From positions 1 through 64,000 of the forward strand of contig NZ_FZNO01000019.1 in the NCBI RefSeq assembly GCF_900188025.1: a stretch of 64,000 bases of DNA, given 5' to 3'. Shown here one piece after another: positions 45,485-54,377 of this stretch (position 1 is the stretch's first letter; each line of letters begins with the position of its first letter). The notes beneath the pieces were generated by a model. The model saw only the letters and a list, made by a program, of their open reading frames with translations. It searched no databases and was not told where the DNA came from. The DNA comes from Blastococcus mobilis (GTDB lineage: Bacteria; Actinomycetota; Actinomycetes; Mycobacteriales; Geodermatophilaceae). A program made the position numbers and the translations under genes.

Positions 45485-46749
45485 CGGCGCTGTTCCAGGA
45501 CGTCCACGACCTCTATCCGGTGGGGCTGCGACTGCTGGACCGCAGGGTGGTCGTCGTCGGCGGCGGCCCGGCCGCGCACCGGCGGACCGTGGGCCTGCTG
45601 GAGGCCGGGGCGCGCGTCACGGTGGTCTGCGCGCAGCTCACCCCGGCTCTCGAAGCGCTCGCCGCGGCCGGGGCGCTGACCTGGATCTCTCGGGACTACC
45701 GGCCCGGCGACCTCGACGGGGCCTGGTACGCGGTGGCCGCGGCGGACACCCCGACCGTGGACGCCGCCGTCGCGGCGGACGCCGAGGCAGCACGCATCTT
45801 CTGCGGCGGGGGCGACGAGGCACGGGCCCTCAGCGCACGGACGCCCGCGGTCGGCCGCTCGGGCGACCTGCTCGTCACGGTGCACGGCGGGACGGACCCG
45901 CGGCACGAGGCCGGACTGCGGGACGCGATCGTCACCGGCCTCGGCGACGGCGGCATCACGGCCCGGACGCCGGAGGCCGGGCGGACCGGCGGCGTCGTCC
46001 TCGTGGGCGGTGGGCCCGGCGACCCGGGACTGATCACGGTCCGCGGACGGCAGGCGCTCACACAGGCCGACGTCGTGGTGGCCGACCATCTCGCGCCGCA
46101 GGCCCTGCTGGCGTCGCTGTCGGCCGACGTCCAGGTCATCGACGCGTCGAAGCTGCCGCGCGGCCGGTCGATGGCCCAGGAACAGATCAACGCGCTGCTG
46201 GTCGAGCACGCACTCGCCGGACGCCGGGTCGTGCGGCTGAAGGGCGGCGATCCGTTCGTGTTCGGTCGCGGCATGGAGGAGCTCGAGGCGTGCGCGGCGG
46301 CGGGCGTGCCGGTGGAGGTGGTCCCGGGCGTCACCAGTGCGATCGGCGTCCCGGGGCTGGCCGGGATCCCGGTGACGCACCGTGGCATGACGCACGAGTT
46401 CGTCGTCGTCTCCGGGCACGTGCCTCCCGACGATCCGACGTCGCTGGTCGACTGGGCGGCGCTGGGCCGGCTGCGGGGCACGCTCGTCGTGCTGATGGGC
46501 GTGGACACCGCGCCCGCGATCGCCGCGGCGCTGATGCGCCACGGCCGGGCCCCGGACACACCGGTGGCCGTCATCACCGACGGCGCGAGCGCCGCCCAGC
46601 GGCTCCTCCGGACCACGCTCTCCGGCCTGCCGAGCACCATGGCCGACCAGGCCGTCCGCCCGCCGGCGGTCTGGGTCGTGGGCGAGGTGGTGCGGCTCGC
46701 GACGCCGCCGGGATCGGCGTGGGAAGGGTCGCCTAACCTGCTGGCGTGA
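45481..46749 (+). CDS. cobA: Uroporphyrinogen-III C-methyltransferase fused to a precorrin-2 dehydrogenase-like domain, 422 aa
   Basis: Residues 10-150 are a Rossmann domain like the CysG N-terminus ('RRVVVVGGGPAAHRRTVGLL', 'WYAVAAADTPTVDAAVA'). Residues 172-415 are a SUMT: 'VVLVGGGPGDPGLITVRGRQ', 'VVADHLAPQALL', 'VVRLKGGDPFVFGRGMEEL', and 'GVTSAIGVPGLAGIPVTHRG'. It makes precorrin-2 and perhaps also sirohydrochlorin for siroheme. The linker domain is shorter than in enterobacterial CysG, so ferrochelatase activity is uncertain. ATG 45481 overlaps the cobE-like gene; the stop overlaps the next glycosyltransferase start (GTGA). Confidence 0.88.
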   Translation: MTALFQDVHDLYPVGLRLLDRRVVVVGGGPAAHRRTVGLLEAGARVTVVCAQLTPALEALAAAGALTWISRDYRPGDLDGAWYAVAAADTPTVDAAVAADAEAARIFCGGGDEARALSARTPAVGRSGDLLVTVHGGTDPRHEAGLRDAIVTGLGDGGITARTPEAGRTGGVVLVGGGPGDPGLITVRGRQALTQADVVVADHLAPQALLASLSADVQVIDASKLPRGRSMAQEQINALLVEHALAGRRVVRLKGGDPFVFGRGMEELEACAAAGVPVEVVPGVTSAIGVPGLAGIPVTHRGMTHEFVVVSGHVPPDDPTSLVDWAALGRLRGTLVVLMGVDTAPAIAAALMRHGRAPDTPVAVITDGASAAQRLLRTTLSGLPSTMADQAVRPPAVWVVGEVVRLATPPGSAWEGSPNLLA

Positions 46750-48188
46750 CATCCACGGCGCTGCGGGCCGGCACGCCGACGTCCCGGCCGCCGGGTGCGC
46801 CGGCCGTCCGGTGGTCCCCCTGGGAGCTGCTGCCGCCGCTGGTCGTGCTGGTCCTGGGCACCGTGCTGCTCCGGCCCGGCCACGGGTTGTGGTTCGACGA
46901 GCTGTTCACCGCCGAGGTGGCTCGGCTCCCCCTGGGCGACATCGTCTCGGCGATCGTCAGCGGCGAGGGAACGACCAGCTACCTCGCCGGGGTGCCGCCG
47001 TCGTACAACGCGCCCTACTACCTCGTGGTGCACCTGTGGATGTCGCTGCCCGGCCTCGGCGGCGACACGTCCCTGCGGGTCCTGTCCCTGCTGGCCACGG
47101 CCGGTGGCCTGGCGCTGATCTGCCGCGCGGTCGCGCGGCTGGGTGGCCACGCGACCGGCATCCTGGCCGGCTGCGTGCTCGCCTGCAGTCCCCTGGTGCT
47201 CGAGCAGGCGGTGGAGGCGCGCAGCTACGGGCTCGCGGTGCTGGCCACCGGCGGGGCTGCGCTCGGCCTGGTGCGCTGGCTGCAGGACCCGCCGCGGGGG
47301 CTGGTGCTCTTCGGCGTCGCGGGCGCGGGGATGGGCCTGGCGCACTGGTACGCCGTCACCGTCCTGGCCGCGTTCGTCGTCGCCGCCCTCGTCCTCCGCG
47401 GCAGACGCGCCCTCCCGGTGCTGCTGACCGGCGCCGCCGCCGCACTGCCCACCGTCGCCCTCGTCGCGCTCAACCTGCTCAACGGGACGGGCGGGCGCAA
47501 CGCCGAGCACCTCAAGGACACCGGCGGCCAACTGCCCGGTCTGGCCGTGCGCGCGTGGGCCGGCGGGGTCGACCCGCTGCTGTACCTGACCGTGGGGCTG
47601 GCGATCCTCGGTGCCGTGCGCGCCGCCGGGCTGCGCGCGGTCGCCGCCTCCTGGGTACTGGTGCCGCTGCTCCTGCTGCTCACCGCGGAGCTGGTCCGCC
47701 CGGTCTACCTGCCCCGGTACCTGCTGGCCGGCCTGCTGGGGCTCGGCGTCCTGGCGGCGGCGGGTGCGCTGACCGTGCCCCGGGCTGCCCGTGCCCCGGT
47801 CGCCGCCCTGATCCTGGCCTGCTCGCTGCTGGCGAGCCAGCCGCTGTTCGACCGCCAACCCCGGGAGCGGTCCGACGACCTGGTGCGGTCGCTGGCCGAG
47901 GTCCAGCGCCGGGGCGAGCCGATCGTCGCCGCCGACCAGCGCTCGGCGACCGGACTCGATCACTACGTCCGCACCCTGGCGCCGGAGCTGCGCCCGGACG
48001 TCGTGCTGCCCCCGGACGACGCGCCGGTGGGCGCCGAGCGCGTGTGGCTGGTCCGCCGGCTGACGGACGGGGTGCCGGAGCCCACCGACGACGACGAGAT
48101 CCTCGCCGCCGGAGGCTTCCGTCAGGTCGCCGAGGACTCGTTCCCGGGCGGCAAGACCGACCTGGTCCTCCAGCGCTGGGAACGCTGA
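46746..48188 (+). CDS. Integral-membrane glycosyltransferase, GT39/GT83-like, 480 aa
   Basis: About ten transmembrane segments. The first luminal loop carries the acidic pair typical of GT-C enzymes in 'GHGLWFDELFTAEVARL'. 'NAPYYLVVHLWMSLPGLGGD' and 'LEQAVEARSYGLAVLATG' also match this class of lipid-linked-sugar transferases (mannosyl- or arabinosyl-type). A soluble C-terminal domain of about 110 residues follows. GTG 46746 overlaps the cobA stop, so it is transcribed at the end of the cobalamin operon, though a link to cobalamin is not evident. It is convergent with the GT2 gene (4-bp gap). Confidence 0.75.
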   Translation: MTSTALRAGTPTSRPPGAPAVRWSPWELLPPLVVLVLGTVLLRPGHGLWFDELFTAEVARLPLGDIVSAIVSGEGTTSYLAGVPPSYNAPYYLVVHLWMSLPGLGGDTSLRVLSLLATAGGLALICRAVARLGGHATGILAGCVLACSPLVLEQAVEARSYGLAVLATGGAALGLVRWLQDPPRGLVLFGVAGAGMGLAHWYAVTVLAAFVVAALVLRGRRALPVLLTGAAAALPTVALVALNLLNGTGGRNAEHLKDTGGQLPGLAVRAWAGGVDPLLYLTVGLAILGAVRAAGLRAVAASWVLVPLLLLLTAELVRPVYLPRYLLAGLLGLGVLAAAGALTVPRAARAPVAALILACSLLASQPLFDRQPRERSDDLVRSLAEVQRRGEPIVAADQRSATGLDHYVRTLAPELRPDVVLPPDDAPVGAERVWLVRRLTDGVPEPTDDDEILAAGGFRQVAEDSFPGGKTDLVLQRWER

Positions 48189-48192
48189 CCGC

Positions 48193-48876
48193 TCACCGTC
48201 GGCGGAACAGCGCCCACGACAGGGATCGGACCGACTGACGCAGCCGGGCCTGACCCGTCCACGCCGAGCGGCCCACCGGTCGCAGGTCCCGCGTCACCGG
48301 CACGCTGGTCGTCGGGACGCCGGCGCGGGCGACGGCCAGGACGACGCTGGGCGCGGCCTCGGCGGTCATCGCGGTCAGGACGGCGGAGCGCACCTCGGCG
48401 TCCATGGCGAAGAAGGCGCCGGCGTCCGGGGGCAGCCCGGTCAGCCGTGCGGCGAACCGCCGGTGCAGGGTCCCGGTGAGCCGGCGCACGGGCGACTCGT
48501 ACCGGCCCCGCCGCCCGGCGAACACCGCACCGACGTCCCCGGTGGCCAGCCGGTCCAGCAGCAACGGCACGGCCTCGGGTGGGTCCTGCAGGTCGGCGTC
48601 CAGACAGACCCAGGCATCCGCGTCGGGCTCCGCGGCCAGCCCCTGGGCGAGTGCGGCGTGCTGGCCAACGTTGACGGGGAGGTCGGTGACCGCGATCCGT
48701 GGGTCGACGGCGGCGAGCGCGGAGGCCACGGCCACGGAGTCGTCGGGCGAGGCGTCGACCACCAGGCGCAGCCGCCAGGTGCGGTCACCCAGGGCGGCCG
48801 CCAGTCGGCCGGCCAGGCGCTCGAGGGTGGCGGCGTTGCCGTACACGGGCGCCACGACCGCCACGCGCGTCGTCAT
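48193..48876 (-). CDS. Family 2 glycosyltransferase, 227 aa
   Basis: A GT-A fold enzyme. The nucleotide-sugar start is 'VAVVAPVYGNAATLERLAGR', the metal-binding DxD is in 'WVCLDADLQDPPEAVPLLL', and 'SPVRRLTGTLHRRFAARL' with 'GAFFAMDAEV' resembles dolichol-phosphate-mannose-synthase-like GT2 members. No C-terminal membrane helices. ATG 48876 overlaps the epimerase stop. It is the last gene of the iron-boxed aldolase-epimerase-GT2 operon. Sugar donor and acceptor unknown. Confidence 0.82.
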   Translation of the reverse strand: MTTRVAVVAPVYGNAATLERLAGRLAAALGDRTWRLRLVVDASPDDSVAVASALAAVDPRIAVTDLPVNVGQHAALAQGLAAEPDADAWVCLDADLQDPPEAVPLLLDRLATGDVGAVFAGRRGRYESPVRRLTGTLHRRFAARLTGLPPDAGAFFAMDAEVRSAVLTAMTAEAAPSVVLAVARAGVPTTSVPVTRDLRPVGRSAWTGQARLRQSVRSLSWALFRRR

Positions 48877-49724
48877 GACGCCGCCCACGTGCGCGCCAGC
48901 CCCTCCGTCAGGTCCACGGTGGGCTCCCAGCCGAGCAGGCGCTGGGCGGCGGAGGGATCGGCGACCCAGTCGGCGGTGTCCCAGTCGCGGCCGGGATGGG
49001 CCCCCGGCAAGGTTGCGATCGGACGCCCCGTCACGCGCTCGGCGACCGCGACGAGCTCCCCCGTGCTGGTCTGCACGCCCGTGCCGATGTTCAGCACGGT
49101 GCCGTTCGGCAGCGTCTGGTCCTGCGCCGCGCGCACGCAGGCGTCGACCACGTCGCCCACCCACACCCAGTCGCGCCGGCTCAGCCGAGCGGGCAGCGGC
49201 ACCGTCGCGCCGGTCCGGGCCGCGGCGAGGACGACGGGGACGAGGCGGGTCGGGTGGTCGCCGGGCCCGTAGACCTGGAAGGCGCGCAGCACGGCGGCCC
49301 GCACGCCACGCTCGGCGGCGGCGGCCTGGAGCAGGAGGGACCCGGCGGCCTTGGTCGCGCCGAAGAACCCGCGCGGTCGGAGGGCGGCATCCTCTCCCAG
49401 TGGCCGAGGCGCGGCGGCGTACTCGGTGGAGGACCCCAGTCGAATCACGGCCCGGCAGCGGTCGGGGAGAGCGTCCACCAGCCACGGGCTGGTGTTGACC
49501 TGCACGGTCGCCGCCCGCTCCGCCGCGGTGGCCTTGGCGCGCCCCGCCGCGAGGGAGAAGACGATGTCGGGGTCCGCCGCGCGAACAGCCGTCGCGGCGG
49601 CCACGGGATCGGCGAGGTCCACGTCGGTCCGGGTGAGGGCGGCGACGTCCCAGCCGTCCGCACGCAGCCGGGCCACCAGGTGCCGGCCGACGAACCCGCC
49701 GGCACCGGTCACCAGCGCCTTCAC
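48873..49724 (-). CDS. NAD-dependent epimerase/dehydratase-like protein with Tyr-to-Phe change, 283 aa
   Basis: Extended SDR fold: 'KALVTGAGGFVGRHLVARL' gives the GxxGxxG motif, 'DVDLADPVAAATAVRAADPD' the second strand, and 'RLGSSTEYAAAPRPLGED' the catalytic Ser/Thr region. The usual YxxxK reads 'GFFGATKAAGS', i.e. Phe in place of the catalytic Tyr with Lys retained. The C-terminus ('GTVLNIGTGVQTSTGELV', 'RLLGWEPTVDLTEGL') is normal. It may bind a nucleotide sugar with altered or lost redox chemistry. GTG 49724 and its stop overlap both neighbours by 4 bp. Confidence 0.82.
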   Translation of the reverse strand: MKALVTGAGGFVGRHLVARLRADGWDVAALTRTDVDLADPVAAATAVRAADPDIVFSLAAGRAKATAAERAATVQVNTSPWLVDALPDRCRAVIRLGSSTEYAAAPRPLGEDAALRPRGFFGATKAAGSLLLQAAAAERGVRAAVLRAFQVYGPGDHPTRLVPVVLAAARTGATVPLPARLSRRDWVWVGDVVDACVRAAQDQTLPNGTVLNIGTGVQTSTGELVAVAERVTGRPIATLPGAHPGRDWDTADWVADPSAAQRLLGWEPTVDLTEGLARTWAAS

Positions 49725-50548
49725 GCCGGCTGGGCCACGACCGCCGGCTCCAGCACCGGAGCCGGCTCCACCAGGTCCGCGGGACCGGCCTCGACCGCCG
49801 CGACGAAGCGCGCCCGGCGCTCCCGGGCCTCGGCGGCGGCTGCATCCCGCAGCTCGGCGACGGAGTCGAGCAGGCGCGGCACCTCGACGAACGGATCGCG
49901 GCCGACCATGTCGGCGGTGAAGGACCGCCGCAGGAAGGTGAAGTCGGTTCCCAGCCGCACCAGCTCGGCAGCCAGCAGGCCGCTCGGCACCGGGAAGCCG
50001 CTCTCCGGGAGCGTCAGGCCACCGACACCGAAGGGCTGGGCCACCTCGGCGCGGACGTCGTCCACGGTGCCGTCGACCAACGGCCGGAAGAGCTCGACGG
50101 ACCGCCGGTCGATGCGCAGGTCGTTGAGGCCCACGTAGATCCGCGACAGGGGCCGGAGAGCCAGCTGGCGAGCCCGGTCGACGGCGTCCTGCGTCTCGAT
50201 CAGGATGCCCAGCCCGCAGCGGCCGGCGACCAGGTCCAGCGTGCGGTCGACCTCGTCGGGAGTGCGGACCATCGGCAGCAGGATCTCGTCCGCGCCGCGG
50301 GCGATCGCCTCGTCGACCTCGTCCCCCGTCCACGGGCCGTGGCCGTTGATCCGGCAGAGCAGCCGTCCGTCGGTCGCGGCCCGCATCCGGGCCAGGTCGT
50401 CCGGAGTGTCCGCGTTGATCTGGGTCCCCTCCCCCAGCTGCCGGCGGGCCTTTCCACGGCGCTCCCAGTCGACGACGATCCCGGCCGCCCCGGCGGCGAC
50501 GACGTCGGCGCCCCAGCCCGGGTCGACGGTGAAGAGGAAGAGGTCCAC
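49721..50548 (-). CDS. HpcH/HpaI aldolase / citrate-lyase-beta-like protein, 275 aa
   Basis: A TIM-barrel of the HpcH/CitE superfamily: 'DLFLFTVDPGWGADVVAAGA', 'GIVVDWERRGK', 'CRINGHGPWTGDEVDEAI', 'ADEILLPMVRTPDEVDRTL' and 'GLGILIETQDAVDRARQL'. The metal-binding Glu in ILIET and a downstream Asp in VGLNDL are present, so it looks catalytic. Members cleave or form C-C bonds with pyruvate-, oxaloacetate- or acyl-CoA-like substrates. It heads the operon with an epimerase and GT2; the iron box 10 bp before its GTG start suggests induction in iron starvation. The leader is so short that the mRNA may be leaderless. Pathway unknown. Confidence 0.8.
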   Translation of the reverse strand: MDLFLFTVDPGWGADVVAAGAAGIVVDWERRGKARRQLGEGTQINADTPDDLARMRAATDGRLLCRINGHGPWTGDEVDEAIARGADEILLPMVRTPDEVDRTLDLVAGRCGLGILIETQDAVDRARQLALRPLSRIYVGLNDLRIDRRSVELFRPLVDGTVDDVRAEVAQPFGVGGLTLPESGFPVPSGLLAAELVRLGTDFTFLRRSFTADMVGRDPFVEVPRLLDSVAELRDAAAAEARERRARFVAAVEAGPADLVEPAPVLEPAVVAQPA

Positions 50549-50558
50549 GGCGGGCAGC

Positions 50559-50577
50559 TTAGGCTTCCCTAACCGAA
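50559..50577 (-). promoter_or_regulatory. DtxR/IdeR-like iron box before the aldolase operon
   Basis: Read on the plus strand, TTAGGCTTCCCTAACCGAA agrees at 14 of 19 positions with the canonical palindrome TTAGGTTAGGCTAACCTAA, keeping the outer TTAGG and the CTAACC core. It ends 10 bp before the GTG at 50548 and overlaps a possible -10 (TAAGCT). A second iron box precedes the adjacent iron transporter operon. Confidence 0.6.
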
Positions 50578-50625
50578 TCGTTCGCAGCGCCCCCGGGACA
50601 GCCGGTCAGCGCTCGCGGCGGCCCC

Positions 50626-51711
50626 TCAGCCCAGGGGCGCGGGCGCCGGCAGCGCCGCGCCGTGGCCCGCCGGGAAGGCGAGCGCGGTGCCGCGCACCGA
50701 GATCGCGACGTCGTCCCCGGCACGAGGAAGATCGGCGCCGTCCAGCCGTGCGCTGACCGTCCCGCCGTCCGGCAGGTCCAGCCAGACCCGGGAGTCGTGG
50801 CCGTAGAAGTCGACGCTGCGCACGCGGGCGATGGGCGCCCCCGGGTCGGGCGCCGAGAGCCGGAGCTGCTCCGGGCGCAGCAGGACCCGGGCGCGGCCGT
50901 CGGGCACGGCGCCGGTGGACGCCTGCTCGTACGGCAGCGCCCCGAGCGCGCAGTGGGCCAGCCCGTCGCGCAGGTCCGCGTCGAGGACGACGGCCTCACC
51001 GACGAAGGTGGCGACGTCGAGGTCGCCGGGACGGCGGTACAGCGTGCGCGGATCGGTCAGCTGCACCAGTCGCCCGCCGCGGAGGACCGCGACCTGGTCG
51101 GCCATCGACAGCGCCTCGGCCTGGTCGTGGGTCACCAGGACCGCGGTGGCCCCGGTGGCGCGCAGCGCCTGCGAGACCGCGAGGCGCGTCTCCTCGCGCA
51201 GGGCGGCGTCCAGCGAGGAGAAGGGCTCGTCGAGCAGGACCAGCGAGGGCTCGGGCGCCAGCGCACGGGCCAGGGCGACACGCTGCTGCTGGCCGCCGGA
51301 GAGCTGGTGCGGGGCGCGGTCGGCCAGTTCGGCGTCCAGGCCGACGAGAGCGAGCAGTTCGCGGACCCGGCCGCCCTCGCGCCGCTGCCGCCGGGGCAGC
51401 CCGAAGCTGATGTTGCCGGCCACGGTGAGGTGCGGGAACAGCCCGCCCTCCTGGGGCACGAAACCGATGCCGCGGCGACGCGCGGCGACGCTGCGCCCGG
51501 CCCCGGCCACGACGCGGTCGCCGAGGGCGACGGTGCCCGAGTCGGGGTCGTCGAAGCCGGCGATGAGCCGGAGGAGGGTCGTCTTGCCACAGCCGGAGGG
51601 CCCGAGCAGCGCGGTGAAGCTCCCACTGGGGACGTGCAGGTCCACCCCGGTGAGAACCGGGGCGGTGGCGGTGAAGGACTTGGTCAGGTCCTGCACGGTC
51701 AGGGAGCTCAT
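50626..51711 (-). CDS. Fe3+-type ABC transporter ATPase (FbpC-like), 361 aa
   Basis: Walker A 'LGPSGCGKTTLLRLIAG', signature 'LSGGQQQRVALARALA', Walker B 'LVLLDEPFSSLDA' and switch 'VLVTHDQAEALSMADQ'. The C-terminal TOBE/OB region (about 240-361) has 'VRSVDFYGHDSRVWLDLPDG'. 'GRSVAARRRGIGFVPQEGGL' and the length fit FbpC/FutC-type ferric transporters. ATG 51711 overlaps the permease stop by 4 bp. It is the last gene of the SBP-permease-ATPase operon. Confidence 0.87.
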   Translation of the reverse strand: MSSLTVQDLTKSFTATAPVLTGVDLHVPSGSFTALLGPSGCGKTTLLRLIAGFDDPDSGTVALGDRVVAGAGRSVAARRRGIGFVPQEGGLFPHLTVAGNISFGLPRRQRREGGRVRELLALVGLDAELADRAPHQLSGGQQQRVALARALAPEPSLVLLDEPFSSLDAALREETRLAVSQALRATGATAVLVTHDQAEALSMADQVAVLRGGRLVQLTDPRTLYRRPGDLDVATFVGEAVVLDADLRDGLAHCALGALPYEQASTGAVPDGRARVLLRPEQLRLSAPDPGAPIARVRSVDFYGHDSRVWLDLPDGGTVSARLDGADLPRAGDDVAISVRGTALAFPAGHGAALPAPAPLG

Positions 51712-53270
51712 GTCGTCAGACCTCGTCGGGCGTCGCGGGACAGCAGCACGGTAGCGGGCGCCGAGAGCAGCACCATGACCACGGCGTACGGCGCTGCCGC
51801 TCCGTACTCCAGGGCACTGCTCGCCGACCAGAACGCCGTGGCCAGCGTCGTCGTTCCCGTGGGGGCGAGCAGCAGGGTCGCCGTCAGCTCGGTGACGACG
51901 GCGAGGAAGACCAGGGCCGCACCGGCGCCGATCCCCGGCGCGAGCAGGGGCAGCGTGATCCGTCGCAGGCGATCGGCCGCCGAGGCGCCGAGCGAGGCGG
52001 CGACGTCGTCGTACACCCGCGGCGACTGCTCCACCGCCGCGCGCACGGTCACGATGGCCCGCGGGAGGAAGAGGATCGCGTAGGCCGCCAGCAGCACCGG
52101 CACCGTCTGGTAGAGCCACGGCGTCACCCGGATGCTCAGCGTCACCAGCGCCAGGGCGACGACGATGCCCGGAACGGCGCTGCCCAGGTAGGTGCTGCGC
52201 TCCAGCAGAGTGGCGACCCGGCCGCGGGCGCGCACGGCCAGCCACCCGGTGGGCAGCGCCATCCCGGTGGTGACGACGGCGGCCGCGGCGGCCAGGCCGA
52301 GCGTCGTCCCGGTGGTGGCCACGAGGGCCGCCCCGTCCAGGGCCGTGGAGGCGCCGGCGGCCATCCAGTAGCCGAGGCTGCCGAGCGGCACGAGCAGGGA
52401 GAGCGCGACGACGGCGGCGAGCGCGGCCAGGGCTGGTCCGGTCAGCCCGCGCAGGGCCACCGGCCGGACCGGCCGGACGGCGCCCTTCGCGGTGCGCGCG
52501 TAGCCGCGCCGGCCGCGCAGCCGGATCTCGGCCAGCAGGAGCACGAGGCAGAGCAGGACCAGGACCCCGGCCAGCATGGTGGCGCCCGGGCCGTTGAACG
52601 TGGCCCGGTACTGGTCGTAGATCGCGGTGGTGAACGTCGGGTAGCGCAGCATCTGCAGCGCGCCGAACTCGGCCAGCAGGTGCAGCGCGACCAGCAGGCT
52701 GCCGCCCAGGAGGGCCACCCGGAGTTGCGGCAGCTGTACCCGCAGGAAGACCGCCCAGCTGGACAGGCCCAGTCCCCGCGCCGTCTCCTCCAGCGCCGGA
52801 TCGAGCCCGCGGAAGGCCGCGGCGATCGGCAGGTAGACGAACGGGAAGTAGGACAGGCTGACGACCAGCAGCGCGCCGCCGTAGGTGTCCAGACCGGGCA
52901 GCAGCGAGATCCACGCGTAGCTGTTCACGAACGCCGGGACGGCGAGCGGCGCGACCAGCAGGACGTGCCAGATGCGGCGGCCGGGGAGGCTCGACCGCTC
53001 GATCAGCCAGGCGGCGCCCACCCCCACGACGGCGCAGACGGCAACGGTGCCCGCCACGAGCCGGGTGGTGTTCCAGAGCAGCTCGGCGACCCGCGGCCGG
53101 AGGACCAGCTCGCGGATGCCCGACCAGCCGACATCGGCGGTGTACCAGGCGATGTAGCCCAGCGGGAGCAGCGCCAGCGCCGCCACCGCCGCGGCCAGCG
53201 CCAGGGTCACCGGGGAGCGACGCAGCCGCACCGGCGTCCCGGCCCCGGACGGCCGAGAGCCCCGGGCCAC
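51708..53270 (-). CDS. Fe3+-type ABC transporter permease (FbpB-like, duplicated module), 520 aa
   Basis: Two permease modules in one chain, about twelve helices. EAA-like coupling loops are 'EETARGLGLSSWAVFLRVQL' in the first half and 'DDVAASLGASAADRLRRITL' in the second. 'VPAFVNSYAWISLLPGLDTY' and 'FGALQMLRYPTFTTAIYDQY' are typical of FbpB permeases for free or loosely chelated Fe3+. The start at 53270 lies 47 bp after the solute-binding gene; the stop overlaps the ATPase start. Confidence 0.88.
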   Translation of the reverse strand: MARGSRPSGAGTPVRLRRSPVTLALAAAVAALALLPLGYIAWYTADVGWSGIRELVLRPRVAELLWNTTRLVAGTVAVCAVVGVGAAWLIERSSLPGRRIWHVLLVAPLAVPAFVNSYAWISLLPGLDTYGGALLVVSLSYFPFVYLPIAAAFRGLDPALEETARGLGLSSWAVFLRVQLPQLRVALLGGSLLVALHLLAEFGALQMLRYPTFTTAIYDQYRATFNGPGATMLAGVLVLLCLVLLLAEIRLRGRRGYARTAKGAVRPVRPVALRGLTGPALAALAAVVALSLLVPLGSLGYWMAAGASTALDGAALVATTGTTLGLAAAAAVVTTGMALPTGWLAVRARGRVATLLERSTYLGSAVPGIVVALALVTLSIRVTPWLYQTVPVLLAAYAILFLPRAIVTVRAAVEQSPRVYDDVAASLGASAADRLRRITLPLLAPGIGAGAALVFLAVVTELTATLLLAPTGTTTLATAFWSASSALEYGAAAPYAVVMVLLSAPATVLLSRDARRGLTT

Positions 53271-53317
53271 CGGGCGGATCGGTGCCCCGGGGCCTCCCGG
53301 GCTCAGGGTGGGCGTGC

Positions 53318-54328
53318 TCAGAGCAGCCCGACTTCCTGCATGAGTGCGGTGACCTCCGGCGCGTTCAGCGAGCCGGGGTCGACCGCCGGGGCCTGCAGCG
53401 ACTCCAGCGGGGGCAGCGCCTCGGCCGAGGCCACGCCGTTGCCGACGGCGTACTCCAGCGCCTTGCTGTCGGTGAGCCGTTCCTGGGCGGCAGTGCTGGT
53501 CAGGTACTCGACCAGCCGCTGGGCCTCCTCCTGCTGGTCGGAGGAGGCCAGCACACCGGCGCCGGAGACGCTCACGAAGGCGCCCGGGTCCTGGTTGCGG
53601 AAGTAGTGCAGGACGACGTCGTCACCGACGAGGCCGTTCTGCGCCTGGTCGCGGTACCAGTAGTAGTGGTACATGACGCCGACGTCGACCTCGCCCTCGT
53701 CGACGGCCTTCATCACCGCGGTGTTGCTGGCGTAGACCTCGGCGTTGCGCTCCAGGCCGGTCAGCCAGGCGCGGGTCTCCTCCTCGCCGCGCAGGGCGAG
53801 GACGGCGCTGACGATCGCCTGGAAGTCCGCTCCCCCCGCGGCGATGCCGACGCGGCCCTCCCACACGGGATCGGCCAGCTCCATGATCGAGGCCGGCACC
53901 TCGGCCTCGGAGATCGCCGCGGGGCTGTACCCGAGCACCGTCGAGCGGGCAGCGAAGCCCACCCAGTTCCCGGACGACGGGCGGTACTGCTCACCCACCT
54001 GCTCGAGCGTCGCCTCGTCCAGGGGAGCCAGCAGTCCGGCCTTGTCGACGACGTCGATCGAGGGGCTGTTCTCGGTCAGGAAGACGTCGGCCGGCGAGGC
54101 GTCGCCCTCCTGGACGATCTGGTTGGCCAGCTCGGAGTCGTTGGCGTCACGGAACTCCAGCTCGATGCCGGTCTCCTCGGTGAAGCCCTCGAGCATCGTG
54201 CGGACCAGGCTCTCGTGCTGGGCGCTGTAGACGGTGAGCGTCTCGGCGTCCGAGCCGCAGCCGGCCAGCGCCACGGTGCAGCCCAGGGTCGAGACGAGTC
54301 CGGCGATTGCCCGGCGGGGCCTGGTCAC
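53318..54328 (-). CDS. Iron ABC transporter substrate-binding lipoprotein (FbpA/FutA-like), 336 aa
   Basis: The signal peptide ends in a lipobox (VALAGC). The mature protein is a class II ferric-binding protein: 'LTVYSAQHESLVRTMLEGF', 'IELEFRDANDSELANQIVQE', 'DVFLTENSPSIDVVDKAGLL', and 'VGVMYHYYWYRDQAQNGLVG' with clustered Tyr residues suited to Fe3+ binding. The GTG at 54328 (GAGGAGC upstream) gives a normal signal peptide; an upstream in-frame start at 54373 would run into the iron box. First gene of the operon and likely iron-repressed. Confidence 0.88.
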   Translation of the reverse strand: MTRPRRAIAGLVSTLGCTVALAGCGSDAETLTVYSAQHESLVRTMLEGFTEETGIELEFRDANDSELANQIVQEGDASPADVFLTENSPSIDVVDKAGLLAPLDEATLEQVGEQYRPSSGNWVGFAARSTVLGYSPAAISEAEVPASIMELADPVWEGRVGIAAGGADFQAIVSAVLALRGEEETRAWLTGLERNAEVYASNTAVMKAVDEGEVDVGVMYHYYWYRDQAQNGLVGDDVVLHYFRNQDPGAFVSVSGAGVLASSDQQEEAQRLVEYLTSTAAQERLTDSKALEYAVGNGVASAEALPPLESLQAPAVDPGSLNAPEVTALMQEVGLL

Positions 54329-54358
54329 GTGTGCTCCTCGAGACGGATGGGCCCGTAG

Positions 54359-54377
54359 ATAGGCCAGGCACACCTAA
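54359..54377 (-). promoter_or_regulatory. DtxR/IdeR-like iron box before the iron transporter
   Basis: On the minus strand TTAGGTGTGCCTGGCCTAT matches the 19-bp canonical iron box at 13 positions, keeping TTAGGT and CCTA arms. It overlaps a possible -10 (TATCTA) and lies 31 bp before the GTG of the ferric-binding protein. Control by DtxR/IdeR is established for such transporters in other actinobacteria; here it is inference. Confidence 0.65.

Follow-up and report, generated by a model that had tools for sequence, protein, structure and literature searches.

A probable IdeR-repressed surface-glycosylation module co-regulated with a ferric importer in Blastococcus mobilis

Polyprenyl-phosphate glycosyltransferase pairs such as ArnC-ArnT consist of a GT2 enzyme, which loads a lipid carrier, and a GT-C enzyme, which transfers the sugar outside the membrane. 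Arn is induced by PmrAB, a system sensing high Fe3+. Ferric importers of the FbpABC/SfuABC type and the actinobacterial regulons of the repressors IdeR and DtxR are further described systems close to the locus considered here. The sequence TTAGGNNNNCCTAA is proposed, in passages of PMC8464063, as the half-site consensus and the target of one IdeR dimer, and the surface carbohydrate composition of Corynebacterium diphtheriae is said to depend on iron in passages of PMC3658426. The present locus lies in Blastococcus mobilis (RefSeq assembly GCF_900188025.1, contig NZ_FZNO01000019.1, positions 1 to 64,000; these 64,000 nucleotides are called the window). It comprises an fbpABC operon, genes for an aldolase homologue, an extended short-chain dehydrogenase/reductase (SDR) and a GT2 enzyme, and a facing GT-C gene. 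It is likely that the latter four genes form an IdeR-repressed surface-glycosylation module, probably based on a lipid carrier and co-regulated with the ferric importer. At the level of sequence the regulatory coupling is well supported; the gene set probably builds a cell-surface sugar and bears an iron-sensing operator of the same type as the importer next to it, which suggests that soil and stone actinobacteria alter their surface at low iron.

Operators were scored by the matches of a 19-mer to the DtxR/IdeR consensus TTAGGTTAGGCTAACCTAA, and at least 13/19 was required for a site. A first-pass annotation of the window had placed one box before the aldolase gene and another before the ferric-binding protein gene; both sit where it put them (Table 1) and the former ends, as claimed, 10 nt before the aldolase GTG (50548), while the scores given to them, 14/19 and 13/19, had to be corrected to 15/19 and 14/19. 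Inside the aldolase box, positions 50559-50572 are a perfect 14-bp IdeR half-site, TTAGGNNNNCCTAA. Among the aldolase operators of Geodermatophilaceae TTAGG and CCTAAGCT are near invariant and the flanks are not conserved. A TANNNT hexamer is found 6-8 nt before the aldolase start codon in 32/32 loci of Geodermatophilaceae, 3/3 of Actinomycetospora (locus L064 left out) and 8/8 of a third family, and because it stands so close to the start codon the aldolase mRNA is probably leaderless, with the operator covering the -10 element. The aldolase promoter thus appears to carry an IdeR operator, as a member of the IdeR regulon should. The register of this operator is 14 bp in Geodermatophilaceae versus 19 bp in the third family, which makes a natural comparison of a half-site and a longer operator serving the same gene in different families.

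Boxes were scanned for in the window, in 37 named loci, in 12 regions and in 8 fbpA-like loci; unnamed loci (L003-L031, L069-L100 and later) were left out. The named loci are 31 from Geodermatophilaceae (genera by record title, membership of the family presumed), 4 from Actinomycetospora and 2 from metagenome-assembled genomes (L065, Actinobacteria; L066, Gemmatimonadetes), and the third family, of the same order as the window's, is represented by 8 genomes read as regions. One of the 31, L032, is a record titled Bacillus sp. AZ43; its genes are ordered as in Geodermatophilaceae and its proteins are 81-88% identical, and it seems to be mislabelled. A site of at least 13/19 lies within 60 bp of the aldolase start in 31/32 Geodermatophilaceae loci (window included), 3/4 Actinomycetospora loci and 8/8 loci of the third family, so the box does recur in relatives; shuffled upstream regions reach this score in 0.13%, 0% and 0% of cases, respectively. 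In Actinomycetospora callitridis (L064) the score within 60 bp is 12/19, and a site at -162 is closer to fbpA. All 30 Geodermatophilaceae loci that hold the region have a site before fbpA; counted within 60 bp, a site is present in 22/27 Geodermatophilaceae and 1/2 Actinomycetospora loci. For the GT-C gene a site within 60 bp was found in 12/19 Geodermatophilaceae loci measured. No upstream region reached 13/19 among those of fbpC (0/36), the SDR gene (0/43) and the GT2 gene (0/41), that is 0/120 together, or of fbpB (0/20). Loci within one lineage are kin, and therefore these counts do not represent independent events.

Relative to the aldolase gene, fbpABC is placed in line in Geodermatophilaceae and divergently in Actinomycetospora, and it is absent from the eight third-family aldolase regions (three of these contigs span just 3.4-4.4 kb). 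In the third family fbpA-like genes (31-42% identity) sit on other contigs, where 7/8 loci have a site of at least 13/19 about 100 nt or less upstream of the gene by our own reading, a count made without a shuffle control. Since boxes persist under three placements of fbpABC, their conservation is not only a matter of inherited synteny. The aldolase was found in 54/112 genomes of the window's family, and exactly those 54 possess an FbpA of at least 74% identity, encoded some 4 kb or less away on one contig (in G010 split at a contig end); FbpA without the aldolase was noticed in nine genomes at 65-66% and in six at 40-41% identity (lists compared by eye). Wider searches for the aldolase yielded little: 3/394 genomes of the class and 2/296 of the phylum (window's genome counted in both), and 2/200 genomes of the phylum of G1057 (G1057 counted). 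The idea of the first-pass annotation that the aldolase, epimerase and glycosyltransferase trio acts together and is linked to iron gains support from conservation, co-occurrence and promoter anatomy.

A single PF02742 protein is encoded in the assembly, and its closest PDB sequence is 1fx7 (IdeR). It carries M10, H79, E83, H98, C102, E105 and H106, which we take to be the metal residues of IdeR. The next matches, 7b1v-7b25, are the IdeR entries of PMC8464063, and S37, P39, T40 and Q43, present in the protein as well, correspond to recognition residues named in passages of that paper. Judged by these residues, the only PF02742 regulator of the genome is a canonical IdeR. Genomes of the third family also have one PF02742 protein each, with an altered recognition helix in the four that were read, and Actinomycetospora has 2-3 per genome, one of them with a canonical helix (three genomes). 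Beside the fbp operon of A. callitridis an extra DtxR-family protein is encoded (L064:3369-4187, 43% to the window-genome IdeR), possibly a local metal regulator.

In the 5,094,633-bp assembly the copy of TTAGGNNNNCCTAA in the aldolase box is the sole perfect one, with about 0.5 expected from the base composition of the window. A genome pattern search revealed four further places with one mismatch. One has a siderophore-interacting-protein gene on one side and a siderophore-type binding-protein gene on the other, and another precedes a further gene of the latter type by about 50 nt. The others are found at L127:4977, between ferritin-like and PEP-mutase-like genes, and at L126:3004, by a DUF2470 gene that adjoins rpsD (named by eye) and is presumed to be iron-related solely through HugZ-type proteins.

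The six core genes (fbpA, fbpB, fbpC, aldolase, SDR and GT2) are all carried by the minus strand in window coordinates; eight window proteins were annotated. The end of fbpC and the start of the aldolase gene are separated by a 77-nt gap. Overlaps of 4 bp, already pointed out in the first pass, join aldolase with SDR (GTGA) and SDR with GT2 (ATGA), and fbpB and fbpC overlap likewise by 4 bp. The GT-C gene is convergent with GT2, the gene ends being 4 nt apart. FbpA matches the ferric iron-binding protein 8k7n (E 8.4e-108) and SfuA (E 3.8e-106) in the PDB, and its Tyr-Tyr motif YHYY, presumably a ferric importer feature, is present in 36/36 FbpA proteins examined, as expected of an FbpABC importer.

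Table 1. Positions of the genes and regulatory elements in the window.
Feature	Position	Strand	Basis or remark
fbpA, ferric-binding lipoprotein, SfuA/YfuA family	53318..54328	-	sequence matches, YHYY motif
fbpB, permease	51708..53270	-	PF00528
fbpC, ATPase	50626..51711	-	PF00005 + TOBE_2
CitE/HpcH-like metal-dependent pyruvate/acyl-CoA aldolase homologue	49721..50548	-	Pfam near-miss, model, invariant residues
Extended-SDR nucleotide-sugar epimerase/dehydratase homologue, Phe for catalytic Tyr	48873..49724	-	PF01370, 133 bits; FFGATK-type motif
GT2 related to polyprenyl/dolichyl-phosphate glycosyltransferases (ArnC, sll0501, DPMS)	48193..48876	-	sequence matches
GT-C (PMT/ArnT-like) glycosyltransferase	46746..48188	+	weak PF13231, DE motif, GT2 fusion in relatives
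IdeR/DtxR box of aldolase operon	50559..50577	-	15/19; both arms almost invariant across 32 Geodermatophilaceae loci
IdeR/DtxR box of fbpABC	54359..54377	-	14/19; 31-49 nt before fbpA GTG (54328)
Weaker IdeR-like site before GT-C gene	46723..46741	+	13/19
Probable -10 element TAAGCT	50556..50561	-	7 nt before aldolase GTG, overlapped by operator

The aldolase homologue reaches 24.7 bits against Pfam HpcH_HpaI (PF03328), just under the cut-off of 25, so that the label HpcH aldolase used in the first pass is narrowly missed. Its structure was modelled because sequence searches of the PDB gave chance-level matches alone. The model, with a predicted local distance difference test (pLDDT) score of 86, is a TIM barrel like pyruvate kinase and HpaI/HpcH; the fold matches rank these two together and point to no substrate, and the absence of citrate lyase beta and SbnG from the fold matches listed excludes nothing. 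Residues D27, E29, R66, E118 and D143 are invariant in 12 aligned relatives and are read here as the acid-Arg-metal set of CitE/HpcH, their roles being presumed. Taken together, model and alignment agree with a PF03328-type barrel whose acid and Arg residues are conserved. Downstream of the aldolase gene, L065 and L066 carry genes for a D-2-hydroxyacid dehydrogenase, a GT2 enzyme, a methyltransferase and a GT-C-like protein (largely by eye; L065 checked). Distant homologues (L109:5206-8828; L120:7965-10966) occur by eye in glycan-type clusters near genes of a BCAT-like aminotransferase and a pyridoxal phosphate (PLP) decarboxylase, perhaps a route to an acid or amine substituent, and these clusters hold sugar-nucleotide genes as well (by eye). 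Such glycan-type neighbours suggest that the enzyme family goes with surface glycans and that control by iron was added in the actinobacterial lineages considered here, although which way the change ran is our supposition.

The SDR scores 133.3 bits against PF01370 (Epimerase; cut-off 20.9) and its NAD-binding glycine motif G[AG]GGFVG is present in 43/43 proteins. An acidic motif, W[FY]DEL[FY], is located near the N-terminus of GT-C in 35/39 proteins, and no PDB match of GT-C was better than E 0.25. In two Actinomycetospora loci (L068 whole, L061 cut by a contig end) GT2 and GT-C are fused into one protein, for which reason GT-C is counted in the module; the trio described in the first pass is thus retained and enlarged by the GT-C gene with its weaker box. 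In A. callitridis GT2 and GT-C are separate, convergent genes. GT-C is present in 30/31 named Geodermatophilaceae loci (L048 ends first), even where other genes, by eye resembling unrelated insertions, stand between GT2 and GT-C. At one such place (L067:10397-13042) there is a large TIR/KAP-NTPase-like open reading frame (by eye), perhaps defence-related.

According to the scheme proposed here, under iron sufficiency Fe-IdeR would occupy the operator over the aldolase -10 element and the operators before fbpABC and hold these genes off, and the GT-C gene would probably be shut off in the same way. During iron starvation the importer and the glycosylation module would be made together. A sugar or sugar nucleotide bearing an acid group would be made or altered by the CitE/HpcH-like enzyme and the SDR; GT2 would load this sugar onto a polyprenyl-phosphate carrier, and GT-C would pass it on, at the outer side of the membrane, to a protein or a glycan of the wall. 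The sequences themselves show the sites, the regulator, the conservation, the co-occurrence, the GT2-GT-C fusion and the family resemblances; we infer iron-dependent repression, leaderless transcription, the lipid-linked donor, the surface acceptor and the acidic product. The most obvious benefit of the glycan would be holding Fe3+ or passing it to FbpA. In a bolder version, which we hold as a tentative and rather doubtful idea, the wall-anchored acid-bearing glycan switched on at iron starvation is a fixed ferric ligand, a “wall siderophore” handing Fe3+ to FbpA; if true, these bacteria of stone and desert would thereby draw iron from minerals at the cell surface.

Several observations weigh against an iron-repressed glycosylation module. 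Phe replaces the catalytic Tyr of YxxxK in 42/43 SDR proteins (the remaining one, L062, whose gene is cut by a contig end, gave no motif match), therefore the label epimerase, also that of the first pass, may be wrong. GT2, a protein of 227 aa, scores only 58.4 bits against the NCBIfam ArnC equivalog (cut-off 529), and GT-C 20.5 bits against PF13231 (PMT_2; cut-off 26.1). The right operator arm doubles as the -10 element, which alone would conserve that arm. L051, a Geodermatophilaceae locus, keeps the genes with a poor aldolase box (11/19), and the GT-C box is absent in 7/19 Geodermatophilaceae, 1/1 Actinomycetospora and 1/1 third-family locus measured. The related modules L065 and L066 have neither box nor fbp, hence the glycan as such may have nothing to do with iron. 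No excess of half-sites was noticed in the assembly, where places with at most one mismatch number 5 versus 14 for a reversed control pattern, or in the window, with three places of at most two mismatches versus 1.73 expected (28/100 shuffles reach 3). The case consequently rests on the place and conservation of the sites and not on counts.

These facts leave room for a reading in which the site is a mere conserved leaderless promoter and the operon, not regulated by iron, stands beside fbpABC by shared ancestry: TANNNT is conserved within the right arm, descent predicts synteny within one family and the motif counts lack an excess. This is nevertheless very unlikely, as the left arm TTAGG matches the right in conservation and the edges are sharp, boxes are retained in differing neighbourhoods, and no upstream region of fbpC, SDR or GT2 genes reaches the threshold. 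If iron control is accepted, the aldolase might instead make a soluble carboxylate, exported as an iron ligand and decorated by the sugar genes. SbnG makes citrate for staphyloferrin B, and the HpcH-type fold, the conserved acid and Arg residues and the position of the gene block beside a ferric importer would agree with a comparable role. We consider it quite improbable, given that no siderophore synthetase was present among the eight annotated window proteins (the genome was not searched for one), that the distant aldolase homologues stand in glycan-type clusters and that the fusion of GT2 with GT-C speaks for an acceptor in the envelope. The first-pass annotation had offered both an iron ligand, in the form of a carboxylate or sugar, and the remodelling of a surface glycan; the fusion and the glycan-type neighbours fit the latter better, and the former is still conceivable, since the aldolase retains residues that pyruvate/acyl-CoA aldolases would be expected to have.

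It is also conceivable, and on balance unlikely, that the GT2/GT-C pair glycosylates proteins, such as the lipoprotein FbpA, at iron scarcity. The weak PMT likeness of GT-C and its co-regulation and linkage with fbpA speak for such a target, whereas no obvious Ser/Thr-rich linker was seen by eye behind the FbpA lipobox, and the glycan genes of the third family have no fbp in their vicinity.

Should the preferred reading of an IdeR-repressed surface-glycosylation module be true, the iron repressor of Actinobacteria would directly govern envelope glycosylation, through operators that are clean in three lineages and a compact pathway of four genes, which could yield an iron ligand at the cell wall. 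No aldolase-SDR-GT2-GT-C module was found among reported IdeR/DtxR targets in a literature search, which likewise gave no description of iron-glycosylation coupling, subscription papers being mostly beyond its reach. A related report concerns C. diphtheriae, whose surface carbohydrates are said to depend on iron; it is a different organism, and the passages of PMC3658426 name no genes or DtxR site. With the known actinobacterial IdeR/DtxR regulons the locus shares a canonical regulator and operators, TTAGGNNNNCCTAA being the half-site given in passages of PMC8464063. Its importer resembles FbpABC/SfuABC systems in the closeness of FbpA to SfuA and the retained YHYY motif, and differs in being coupled to glycosylation genes. 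The division of labour in ArnC-ArnT and other polyprenyl-phosphate GT2/GT-C pairs is, by homology, probably repeated here, though with a GT2 of only 227 aa and other partners, and in contrast to Arn this module is predicted to be switched on at low iron.

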